From the NCBI GenBank assembly GCA_017307375.1, contig JAFKFH010000005.1, positions 186,001 to 250,000 on the forward strand: DNA of 64,000 nucleotides, written 5' to 3'. Position 1 is the first letter of the stretch. Every line of letters begins with the position of its first letter. Origin of the DNA: Alphaproteobacteria bacterium. Its GTDB lineage: Bacteria > Pseudomonadota > Alphaproteobacteria > Ferrovibrionales > Ferrovibrionaceae. The translations under genes and the position numbers were made by a program. Shown here in pieces: positions 32,969 through 35,387 of this stretch. The notes beneath the pieces were generated by a model. That model did not search any database. It was not told the DNA's origin and saw only the letters and a program-made list of their open reading frames with translations.

Positions 32969-33751
32969 ATGGATCTCGGCATCGCCGGAAAGAACGCGCT
33001 GGTCTGCGCCGCCTCGAAGGGGCTGGGCCGCGCCTGCGCCGAACATCTCGCCCAGGCCGGCGTCAACCTGACGATCACGGCGCGCGGGGTCGAGGCGCTC
33101 GAAGCCACCGCGGCCTATCTGCGCGGCCTGAACCCGGCGATCACGGTCAAGACCGTCGCCGGCGACATCGCGACGGCAGACGGCCGCGCCGCGGCACTCG
33201 ATACGGCCGGCGACATCGACATCCTGATCAACAATGCCGGCGGGCCGCCGCCCGGCAATTTCCGCGACTGGGACCGCACGGCCTGGAACGCGGCCCTCGA
33301 AGCCAACATGCTGACCCCGATCGACCTGATCAAGGCGACGGTCGACGGCATGATCGCCCGCAAGTTCGGCCGTATCGTCAACATCACCTCCGGTGCGGTC
33401 AAGGCACCGATCGCGACGCTCGGCCTCTCGAACGGCGCGCGTTCGGGCCTCACCGGCTTCGTCGCCGGCGTGGCGCGCGAGGTGGCGCGCCACAACGTCA
33501 CCATCAACGGCCTGCTGCCCGGGCGCTTCCTGACCGACCGGCTGACCAAGAATTTCGACTACGAGGCGCAGAAGGCCGGAATTGCGGTGGACGAGCATAT
33601 CCGCCGCGCCTCCTCGAACATCCCGGCCCAGCGCTTCGGCGAGGCGACCGAGTTCGGCGCGGCCTGCGCCTTCCTCTGCTCGGTGCATGCCAGCTACATC
33701 GTCGGCCAGAACCTGCTGATCGACGGCGGCGCCTATCCCGGCACGTTCTGA
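32969..33751 (+). CDS. SDR-family oxidoreductase
   Basis: A 260-residue short-chain dehydrogenase: cofactor motif ALVCAASKGLGRACA (with Ala-Ala-Ser in place of the usual TGAS), NNAGGPPPG, catalytic Ser in NITSGAVK. The usual Y-x-x-x-K is replaced by LSNGARSGL, that is the Tyr and Lys are not at their expected place, as in the subgroup annotated as 3-oxoacyl-ACP reductase homologues (FabG-like YgfF/YohF-type). Reductase activity is therefore uncertain. GTG 32960, which overlaps the dacB stop and has a better spaced AAGGA, is an alternative start. Confidence 0.82.
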   Translation: MDLGIAGKNALVCAASKGLGRACAEHLAQAGVNLTITARGVEALEATAAYLRGLNPAITVKTVAGDIATADGRAAALDTAGDIDILINNAGGPPPGNFRDWDRTAWNAALEANMLTPIDLIKATVDGMIARKFGRIVNITSGAVKAPIATLGLSNGARSGLTGFVAGVAREVARHNVTINGLLPGRFLTDRLTKNFDYEAQKAGIAVDEHIRRASSNIPAQRFGEATEFGAACAFLCSVHASYIVGQNLLIDGGAYPGTF

Positions 33752-33810
33752 CCCCCGGGGCTTGTATCCGCGGCGGGACCGCGCCATATTCGTGGTGTCG
33801 TCAACTTTTG

Positions 33811-33825
33811 AAAGGAGGTGATCCA
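33811..33825 (+). promoter_or_regulatory. Exceptionally long Shine-Dalgarno sequence
   Basis: AAAGGAGGTGATCCA is complementary to the whole 3' end of 16S rRNA (CTGGATCACCTCCTTT region), far beyond the usual 4-6 bases. It abuts the GTG start of the 23-residue ORF. A weak promoter (TTGTAT 33762, CATATT 33785, 17-nt spacer) is possible upstream. Confidence 0.75.
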
Positions 33826-33897
33826 GTGTCTGATCTTCTTAACCCGTCGATCGCCGCGACCTGGATCCTCGCCTCTCGCGAGGTCTCTGCCGCCTGA
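33826..33897 (+). CDS. 23-residue leader peptide, copy 1
   Basis: GTG start directly behind the extended Shine-Dalgarno sequence; the peptide is MSDLLNPSIAATWIL plus ASREVSAA and ends at TGA 33895. The end of the ORF can fold into a perfect hairpin (CCTCGC / GCGAGG, 33867-33883). A second hairpin (GCGGTC / GACCGC, 33908-33923) and an intrinsic terminator follow. The layout is that of a transcription attenuator or a small regulatory RNA with a translated ORF. The peptide has no run of one regulatory codon, so it does not look like a classical amino acid attenuator. Confidence 0.6.
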   Translation: MSDLLNPSIAATWILASREVSAA

Positions 33898-33939
33898 CCA
33901 TGCGGCTGCGGTCCGGTGACCGCGCGGTTAGACCAGGGG

Positions 33940-33973
33940 AAGGGCCGTCATCGTAAGGTGGCGGCCCTTTCTT
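33940..33973 (+). terminator. Intrinsic terminator of the leader, copy 1
   Basis: AAGGGCCGTCA pairs with TGGCGGCCCTT (one G-U pair) around an 8-nt loop, and TTTCTT follows. It ends the leader before the truncated gene copy at 33988. Confidence 0.75.
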
Positions 33974-33987
33974 CGTCCGGGGGTTCG

Positions 33988-34074
33988 ATGACCGACGACT
34001 TCGCCACCCATGTGCCGGCCTGGCGCATCCGCCGCCCCGTCCTCACCCTGGCTCACGACCAGCTAGGCAGCTAA
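33988..34074 (+). pseudogene. Truncated duplicate of the start of the 34920 gene
   Basis: The first 16 codons (MTDDFATHVPAWRIRR) equal those of the intact gene at 34920; the frame then passes into the inserted DNA and stops at TAA 34072 after 12 unrelated codons. It is a by-product of the duplication/insertion and is unlikely to be functional. Confidence 0.8.
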
Positions 34075-34747
34075 CTACCTGAGACTGTGTTGACGAACGC
34101 TTGAAAACTAGCGCGCTGGTAGGGGCGGGCCGCCATGCCGGTCGGTCGGCGGGAAGGTATTTTGTAACCTCCTGGAGCTTGACGCCTGGGCAGCTGCGGG
34201 CGCACCGCAGCATTCAATCTAGCGCACCCTATTTGCCGCCGCGTAGGCGGCTAAGCCTTCCTACTGATAGGAGCCCCCGGTATCTCGAGCGCTTTCTTGA
34301 TGAATGCAATTAATGATACGCTAGGACAGGATACAATACACACAAAGGTAATTCGTGATGAATATAATAAAAACTATCAGCGGGCTCTTTTATCTTGTAT
34401 TTTTCTTATTAATAATTGTTCTTTTTGGGGGTTTTATTTCCAAATTTTTCGATTCCATAATAGAATCAACAAAAATTTATAATGCACTTCTTATAATTTT
34501 CTTTTTTTCTATGATGATGATGATCAAAGAAAACTTCAGATCAGAGATTCGAAAACTTGAAAACAGGATTTCACTCCTTGAAGAGCAAGCCGCCGAGAAT
34601 GCAGCTAGCCGCAACGAACAAAACCCATCTTGGTAGGATTTTGGTGGGATTCTGCCCCATGCCGCCTTGACGAAAATTTCCTACCAGTTGACAGCGTTGA
34701 AAAGCCTACATAATTTTCCCGTCGACTCTAGATTTTGACTGCACGAT
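34037..34747. mobile_element. 711-bp insert between the direct repeats
   Basis: Unique DNA lying between the two copies of the 221-bp repeat. Base composition is unlike the chromosome, most strongly from about 34300 to 34560: 34381-34440 has 17 G/C out of 60. The left part (34037-34290) is of mixed composition with small hairpins (GCCGCC / GGCGGC near 34230) and no convincing ORF. No integrase, transposase or terminal inverted repeats were found, so its mobility is inferred from the flanking duplication and composition only. It could be the remnant of a larger integrated element or a small passenger element. Confidence 0.6.
34358..34636 (+). CDS. Small AT-rich-encoded membrane protein in the insert
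   Basis: A 92-residue product with two strongly hydrophobic helices (about residues 6-30, LFYLVFFLLIIVLFGGFIS, and 43-59, ALLIIFFFSMMMM) followed by a charged coiled-coil-like tail (RSEIRKLENRISLLEEQAAENAA). AAAGG lies 9 nt upstream of ATG 34358; GTG 34355 is an alternative. Codon use is AT-rich, unlike every other gene in the window, indicating recent acquisition. No family recognised; small exclusion, toxin or holin-like proteins have similar layouts, but nothing here proves any of these. Confidence 0.65.
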   Translation: MNIIKTISGLFYLVFFLLIIVLFGGFISKFFDSIIESTKIYNALLIIFFFSMMMMIKENFRSEIRKLENRISLLEEQAAENAASRNEQNPSW

Positions 34748-34757
34748 AGGTGATCCA

Positions 34758-34829
34758 GTGTCTGATCTTCTTAACCCGTCGATCGCCGCGACCTGGATCC
34801 TCGCCTCTCGCGAGGTCTCTGCCGCCTGA
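34758..34829 (+). CDS. 23-residue leader peptide, copy 2
   Basis: Identical in every base to copy 1 over the ORF. Here the ribosome site is reduced to AGGTGA because the repeat begins inside it, so translation is probably weaker than in copy 1. It lies directly upstream of the terminator and the 34920 gene, the presumed original arrangement at the 3' side. Confidence 0.5.
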   Translation: MSDLLNPSIAATWILASREVSAA

Positions 34830-34871
34830 CCATGCGGCTGCGGTCCGGTGACCGCGCGGTTAGACCAGGGG

Positions 34872-34905
34872 AAGGGCCGTCATCGCAAGGTGACGGCCTT
34901 TTCTT
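34872..34905 (+). terminator. Intrinsic terminator of the leader, copy 2
   Basis: GGCCGTCA and TGACGGCC form a perfect stem with an 8-nt loop, followed by TTTTCTT. It stands 15 nt before the ATG of the next gene, so read-through or antitermination would be needed for transcription from the leader promoter. Confidence 0.82.
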
Positions 34906-34919
34906 AGTCCGGGGGTTCG

Positions 34920-35387
34920 ATGACCGACGACTTCGCCACCCATGTGCCGGCCTGGCGCATCCGCCGCCTGCGCGCCGTGCTGCGCGCCGCCGAGGAAGAA
35001 GGCCGGCGGGGCGAGCCCGACGAGGCCGGCGACCACCGCGCCATCCTGCGCCGCCGGGCGCGCGGGCGGATCGCCGCCCAGGCTGCGCGCCCCGGCCGGG
35101 GCGCGCGGCGCAGCGTGCTGCGCTACGGCCGCCTCCTCTCCGGCGACCGCCGCCGGGTCGACTTCCTGCTGGCCAATGCCCGCCGCCATTTCACCACGGC
35201 AAAACCGCCGCGCGGCGCGCTGGTGGCCGCCTATGCCGATCTCAAGACTGAGATGAAGGCGGCCGGATTGCCGACGCCCAAGCGTCATCGCTGGCGCGCA
35301 TGGCTGGCCTATGCCGGTTTCGTGCCGCTGCCTAGCGCCGCAACAGGCGCAGCGGCCGGAAGTAATCCAGCACCGCCGGATCGTTGA
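34920..35387 (+). CDS. Basic protein of unknown function
   Basis: The 155-residue product is Arg/Ala-rich and strongly basic (RRARGRIAAQAARPGRGARRSV), with no signal peptide or membrane helix; I recognise no family. The 3' end overlaps the convergent glycosylase-like gene by 56 nt. It is the first gene behind the leader with terminator, and its first 16 codons are duplicated at 33988. A nucleic-acid-binding role would fit the charge but is a guess. Confidence 0.55.
   Translation: MTDDFATHVPAWRIRRLRAVLRAAEEEGRRGEPDEAGDHRAILRRRARGRIAAQAARPGRGARRSVLRYGRLLSGDRRRVDFLLANARRHFTTAKPPRGALVAAYADLKTEMKAAGLPTPKRHRWRAWLAYAGFVPLPSAATGAAAGSNPAPPDR

Follow-up and report, generated by a model that had tools for sequence, protein, structure and literature searches.

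The closest described relative of the element reported here appears to be the caulobacter small RNA (sRNA) CC2171, filed in Rfam as family RF01867 and reportedly going back to Landt et al. (2008). Like our locus, the Rfam model holds the same extended Shine-Dalgarno (SD) sequence, a GUGUCUCAUUGUC start, long-range pairing and a terminator. In the literature found by its identifier the family is named in tables only, as far as the retrieved passages extend; the Mesorhizobium huakuii candidate MH_s33 carries the annotation RF01867 (PMC5596092), and the family is also tabulated in the Rfam 15 paper. The string CC2171 led, judging by title and among the matches listed, only to the Rfam paper on RNA families, and among the papers listed by the literature searches there was no description of an open reading frame (ORF), of stop codon conservation or of an unconstrained peptide. 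According to a passage in PMC4117421, the non-coding RNAs reported there are mostly intergenic and untranslated, and two earlier Caulobacter non-coding RNAs, which the passage does not name, are translated.

Three further systems share single properties with the locus, as described in the relevant parts of the respective papers. In Sinorhizobium meliloti, rnTrpL/peTrpL is likewise an RNA with a translated 14-codon ORF, derived from an attenuator (PMC10117765); however, this ORF is leaderless, lies before trpE and yields a functional peptide, whereas our element has a maximal SD, no fixed next gene and an unconstrained peptide. UpsM of Rhodobacter sphaeroides (PMC5089854) is an alphaproteobacterial sRNA with a terminator and a proposed small ORF, but it resides in the mraZ 5′ UTR with read-through, its small ORF spans from 5′ to 3′ of the terminator, and the term 'Shine-Dalgarno' is absent from the text of that paper. 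Identity with UpsM was rejected, as the Rhodobacteraceae-type relative L105 is flanked by a Vut_1 transporter and an RF-1 domain gene and not by mraZ. Extended SD motifs of Staphylococcus aureus (PMC13009471) also form an SD/anti-SD helix longer than the canonical one, possibly on a leader upstream ORF, but there they occur on a sizeable share of mRNAs, whereas the type described here is mostly one gene per genome.

The window, i.e. the entire 64,000-nucleotide stretch of DNA that was analyzed, carries an element with complementarity to the anti-SD, a 23-codon GTG ORF, hairpins and a terminator, all of which are present where the earlier note had placed them (Table 1). In the predicted fold of positions 33800-33976, a 19-pair long-range helix encloses two internal hairpins and is followed on its 3′ side by a 17-pair terminator stem. 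The region 33800-33990 folds with a z-score of -3.70, and none of 200 shuffled versions was equally stable. We consider it about an even bet (roughly 0.5) that the element encodes, as a gene in its own right, a structured RNA of some 175 nt that is conserved for being loaded with ribosomes and not for its peptide. Comparison with relatives supports the components of this reading, namely homology, covariation of a helix in one group of relatives (group A), a nearly invariant SD and a stop codon kept without amino-acid constraint.

Table 1 Features of the element and of its duplication within the window
Feature	Position	Strand	Basis
Promoter-like site: -35 TTGTAT (33762-33767), 17-nt spacer, -10 CATATT (33785-33790)	33762..33790	+	-10-like box position across elements
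Copy 1 of the small RNA gene with inferred ends; RF01867 relative	33800..33975	+	Rfam match 33802-33968, 60.4 bits; sequence included in model R1
Extended SD GAAAGGAGGTGATCCA, complement of an alphaproteobacterial 16S 3′ tail (AAAGGAGGTGATCCA at 33811-33825, preceded by G at 33810)	33810..33825	+	complementarity, conservation
ORF, GTG start at 33826, 23 sense codons (MSDLLNPSIAATWILASREVSAA), TGA stop at 33895-33897	33826..33897	+	ORF reading, pN/pS, stop comparison
Long-range helix, 5′ strand, within ORF	33840..33861	+	fold, swap test, covariation
Internal hairpin	33863..33886	+	fold
Second internal hairpin, loop contains stop codon	33889..33906	+	fold
Long-range helix, 3′ strand	33910..33930	+	fold, swap test, covariation
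Terminator hairpin merging into its own T-rich tail	33936..33973	+	fold, lenient hairpin search, structure test
Direct repeat, left copy	33816..34036	+	self-comparison
711-bp insert with AT-rich 92-aa ORF (34358-34636), probably what is left of an integrated element	34037..34747	+	repeat boundaries, ORF
Direct repeat, right copy, without the promoter-like box and with the SD shortened to AGGTGATCCA; ORF 34758-34829 intact	34748..34968	+	self-comparison

A whole-window Rfam search at gathering thresholds returned no family, and formal family membership was rejected accordingly. When the search was narrowed to 1.5 kb, copy 1 aligned to RF01867 over the full model (1-159) with 60.4 bits (E 1.4e-11), below the gathering score of 75; copy 2 reached 32.3. 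Relatives of the same anatomy pass this score at 7 of 19 loci in one set and 3 of 19 in another; at gathering, the second set gave no family at the element in three Rhodobacteraceae-type, three Bradyrhizobium-type, seven MSSE/MSSD-type and three group A loci. Despite scoring below the formal cut-off, the window RNA thus appears related to RF01867 in origin. A search for tRNA or tmRNA was negative, and both identities were rejected.

No 16S rRNA gene of the window's genome was found in its assembly, and a search for the 16S tail sequence gave no match in 31 genomes; because of this, complementarity was judged against GGCUGGAUCACCUCCUUUCU, the start of an RNA oligo given in a table of a Sinorhizobium paper (PMC6943124), and not against the host's own 16S rRNA. 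The assembly is rated 100% complete despite the absence of this gene. That the extended SD and the anatomy are above chance was judged by conservation in relatives. The sequence AGGAGGTGATCCARTG is present in 27 of 289 alphaproteobacterial genomes (0 for the reversed-pattern control), and 23 of the 27 places, the window included, open ORFs of up to 30 codons, for which a lenient search called a terminator hairpin. With GAAAGGAGGTGRTCNNRTG, 81 places were obtained in 80 of 385 alphaproteobacterial genomes, mostly as single copies and again with 0 for the reversed control; ORFs of up to 35 codons are opened at 74 of the 81, and a hairpin with a T-rich tail follows in 71 of these 74, as called leniently and without a shuffle control. 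When genomes were drawn across the phylum, AAGGAGGTGRTCNNRTGTC occurred in 76 of 135 genomes of the same class vs 6 of 263 of other classes (a split counted by hand), and in 1 of 398 for the control. In Alphaproteobacteria, this extended SD placed before a start codon therefore seems almost diagnostic of one gene.

Four of the six matches in other classes are long coding sequences, and the remaining two (L302, L303) show the anatomy with TAAGGAGG. The TAAGG version was found in 2 of 229 genomes of their class, including L317 with an 11-codon ORF, and in 2 of 59 genomes of their family. These three are sparse look-alikes with TAAGGAGG beyond Alphaproteobacteria, as would be expected if the SD tracks the local 16S tail, which we take to end in CCUUA in these organisms. 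A species-wide scan gave at least 120 matching stretches; the 80 titles among the matches listed belong to alphaproteobacteria, as far as the organisms can be placed, or bear wider labels such as Proteobacteria. Another 40 stretches beyond those titled were also used in the pN/pS and stop codon comparisons described below. The extended SD additionally precedes ORFs of about 50-59 codons at eight loci (L213, L234, L235, L265, L266, L119, L128, L095), and these ORFs resemble, by eye, small secreted proteins with a signal-peptide-like start.

The SD is also retained where it played no part in finding the relatives. A covariance model (R1) of the body alone, from the start codon to the terminator, was built from 27 group A sequences, the window among them, and run on the 289 genomes. 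Above 44 bits, R1 gave 11 matches in genomes outside the exact-pattern set; GAAAGGAGGTG[AG]TC lies directly upstream in ten, and the eleventh (L195) is located in a coding region and looks false. Below about 44 bits the matches mainly look like terminators, and the 123 of 289 genomes with an R1 match are not to be read as occurrence. Comparison across relatives, including those found without the SD, hence shows it to be nearly invariant. The variant GGTGGTCC preserves pairing through G-U, while other variants alter the last bases before the start codon.

Of 107 loci, eight were dropped from the comparisons (L031, L036, which is the window again, L039, L054, L055, L119, L121 and L128). Seven with seemingly mis-called terminators (L053, L056, L061, L100, L116, L125, L135) and the long-ORF locus L095 were left out of the helix-swap, SD-masking and hybrid-energy tests. 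When 43 of the 47 group A sequences were submitted to RNAalifold, nothing beyond the terminator and an SD hairpin emerged; for this reason the long-range helix was tested on the 27 better-aligned sequences with a structure of our own specification, a choice that favors the helix and for which shuffles and slid versions serve as the check. For the helix together with the terminator, 17 of 27 pairs changed on both sides, a count reached by none of 500 shuffles. The helix alone showed double changes at 10 of 16 pairs (shuffled mean 5.5), 22 double-change cells (8.9 when shuffled) and a covariation score of 0.217 (0.134), and on each of five measures no shuffle of 500 came up to it. Slid versions of the helix pair at 29-53% vs 83% for the actual one. 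The slide by -3 columns comes near in counts (9 pairs, 18 cells and 26 types vs 10, 22 and 27) but is clearly below in pairing (46% vs 83%) and score (0.129 vs 0.217). In a swap test on 92 elements of four groups, cognate helix halves outperformed swaps within groups (sum -1488 vs -1316, sd 24; 0 of 2000). The signal resides in groups A and D, and groups B and C gave none (rank fractions 0.51 and 0.55). As all sequences are related by descent, shuffle and pair counts are not probabilities. By this comparison, the helix between the first codons and the segment before the terminator shows covariation in group A. Both the complementarity and the paired regions are real and kept in relatives, and conservation of this kind is what the earlier note itself had asked for.

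The SD itself may be masked within the RNA. In the window, positions 33861-33862 and the adjoining first internal hairpin hold CTGGATCCTCGCC, which partly resembles the 16S tail and is able to pair with the SD. In group B (n = 20), the predicted partner of the SD is a CAYCUCC lying immediately 5′ of the terminator; pairs there are the same or changed on one side, at most 1 of 20 is broken per pair, and no double changes occurred. Across groups, masking by internal stretches lies at or below the 5% level of shuffles in only 24 of 92 elements.

Judged by its layout, the element looks like a separate transcription unit and a stand-alone gene. The best -10-like box ends about 18-22 nt 5′ of GAAAGG in 79 of 100 elements, with a mean score of 8.41 vs 7.44 for shuffled sequences. 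A consensus scan of 33700-35000 found no terminator-like site and, as its sole promoter-like site, 34437-34466, away from the element; we read this as the TTGTAT/CATATT boxes falling below its threshold and the terminator stem overlapping the T tract. Downstream, the first gene is convergent at 45 of 93 loci (A 25/46, B 4/21, C 7/9, D 9/17; orientations from a lenient gene caller), and its identity differs between lineages among the matches listed. Of the functions proposed earlier, a translated small RNA appears to fit best, given the kept stop codon, the promoter-like box and the element's own terminator. Such an RNA may act by base-pairing in trans, with the internal pyrimidine-rich stretches as seeds and the ORF kept since ribosome transit protects or remodels the RNA. 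This reading, which we regard as possible but clearly short of even odds, accords with the filing of CC2171 as an sRNA by Rfam, with recurring CCUC-type stretches and with the frequent convergence of the downstream gene. However, base-pairing alone leaves the strong conservation of the SD unexplained, and an RNA conserved for ribosome loading is preferred.

What is conserved in the ORF bears directly on this preference. Over 59 non-overlapping pairs, chosen for equal ORF length, pN/pS was 1.08 (5-95%: 0.93-1.27), with 0.90 and 0.76 in the off-frames and 151, 175 and 136 changes at codon positions 1, 2 and 3, respectively. Amino-acid selection, as expected of a dual-function sRNA, was not seen at this ratio. 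The stop codon behaves differently: among 39 pairs taken regardless of ORF length it is identical in 29, replaced by another stop in nine and lost in one, so that 9 of the 10 differing pairs swap to another stop, where a random change would leave a stop in about 1/6 (assumed as 0.17). As an 18-codon ORF was the defining criterion of group B, all 22 members stop at codon 19 by construction; only the mix of triplets (TAG 9, TGA 7, TAA 6) is informative. Taken together, frame and stop seem selected and the residues do not.

A small mRNA for a functional micro-peptide would also call for a strong SD and a kept stop codon, and several peptide features recur: MSHCH and TWI.AS in group A, TW in 27 of 47 group A peptides, and CTGG[AG][TC], which lies in frame 0 at codons 10-15 in 34 of the 38 elements holding it within the ORF. 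The kept frame of this last motif could reflect constraint on Trp or on the RNA stretch, which are indistinguishable here. Against a micro-peptide stand the pN/pS of 1.08, the Bradyrhizobium-type group with 0 synonymous vs 27 non-synonymous differences (summed over pairs of eight sequences), and ORF lengths of 14-35 codons with peptides dissimilar between groups. On these grounds a selected peptide was rejected, and we hold this explanation to be unlikely. Translation of the ORF as such, as in the preferred reading, would be compatible with the kept frame and stop.

The downstream genes also bear on a cis-acting attenuator of the next gene, one of the roles suggested in the earlier note. In the Rhodobacteraceae-type group, the downstream gene lies on the same strand at 17 of 21 loci, and here an attenuator may hold locally. 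An ArfB-type motif is found near the element at 17 of 80 genome-contig loci, with an RF-1 domain in the one checked (L105), and RNase R-type genes, by motif, are downstream in Bosea and one Methylobacterium. Overall, however, no conserved same-strand downstream gene was found: the next gene is convergent at nearly half of the loci and differs elsewhere, and at L056, L066, L071 and L112 the ArfB ORF is about 700-900 nt away with other ORFs intervening. This role was therefore not upheld and is quite improbable in general. The observation that no cluster of codons for one amino acid exists was borne out, by eye, for the window and for the peptides of its relatives, none of which has a regulatory-codon run. 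At the 80 loci, an RF3 motif is nearby in four, all Microvirga, an RNase R motif in five (four by a narrower scan) and YaiI in six; the narrower scan of 85 further loci gave ArfB at three, RNase R at one, RF1/2 at three and YaiI at three. Such neighbors recur at L105, L063, L102, L068 and their relatives, mostly by motif. Since the association of ArfB, RNase R and RF3 (ribosome rescue and termination) and of YaiI is clustered by lineage and was noticed post hoc, we treat it as a lead only.

The element of the window is duplicated, which the earlier note had overlooked: its two 221-bp copies are 98% identical. Copy 1 retains the promoter-like box and the full SD, both of which copy 2 lacks, and the four base differences between the copies, at 33954-33974, fall within the terminator or immediately adjoin it. 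The insert between them occurs at one place in the genome, and neither insert nor element matched plasmids. Near the right end of the insert, at 34721-34732, lies GTCGACTCTAGA, which we take to resemble a cloning polylinker, by chance or contamination. Directly after copy 2, a 155-aa ORF (34920-35387), whose first 49 nt belong to the repeat, had no Pfam or NCBIfam match. The pattern is also found on 18 viral contigs, on nine of them before ORFs of at least 47 codons, mostly phage genes, and on nine before short ORFs. In four of the latter nine a recombinase adjoins the element. L328 (Pfam) and L332 (by eye) have a tyrosine integrase there and L336 has a serine recombinase (Pfam); the tyrosine integrase match of L324 falls short of the Pfam cut-off. 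The sRNA gene may thus serve as an attachment site for unrelated mobile elements, and the 221-bp duplication and its 711-bp insert would be accounted for in this way. The repeat fits an integration at the sRNA gene that restored a working copy, the integrated element having since decayed.

How would an RNA conserved for ribosome loading work? Transcription would start about 10-13 nt before GAAAGGAGGUGAUCCA, a sequence that could hybridize to the 16S 3′ tail over 16-17 bp, and the ORF of about 14-35 codons would follow. Its early codons would pair with the stretch that immediately precedes the terminator, and internal pyrimidine-rich stretches could mask the SD as well, so that ribosome binding would compete with helix and masking. 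The RNA would then exist in two forms, one closed and untranslated, the other open and loaded with ribosomes, and the choice between them would determine how stable it is or whether it can pair with targets. The hybrid with the 16S tail is predicted at a median of about -31 to -32 kcal/mol, and opening the SD would cost 5-13 kcal/mol; by these energies the hybrid (about -32 kcal/mol) could outcompete masking, and free 30S subunits would therefore be expected to open the RNA. Ribosomes translating the ORF would free the 5′ strand of the long helix, and the helix would close again once loading falls. Sensing of free 30S subunits or of the translation state, as proposed before, is a possibility for this RNA, and the idea gains indirect support from the apparent selection on translation but not on the peptide. 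Going further, these RNAs might form a 'peptide-blind', ribosome-responsive class in which a maximal SD reads free 30S or initiation capacity and ribosome transit flips the helix that gates action, a proposal that we put forward tentatively. Initiation might also be slowed by so strong an SD, which counts against the ribosome-loading reading. That the RNA is merely a decoy titrating free small subunits is very improbable despite the hybrid energy of about -32 kcal/mol, as extreme abundance would be needed to titrate ribosomes and a decoy has no need of a conserved stop codon.

If an RNA conserved for ribosome loading is what the locus encodes, a tiny ORF would be maintained for the act of translation across a large part of a bacterial class. 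It would offer a natural means, simple in genetic terms, of probing ribosome availability, and would argue by example against treating every conserved small ORF as a micro-peptide. At least three groups not recognized by Rfam here would also be linked to an orphan Rfam family, united by a signature of 16S-tail complement, ORF and terminator that would be testable in laboratory strains.
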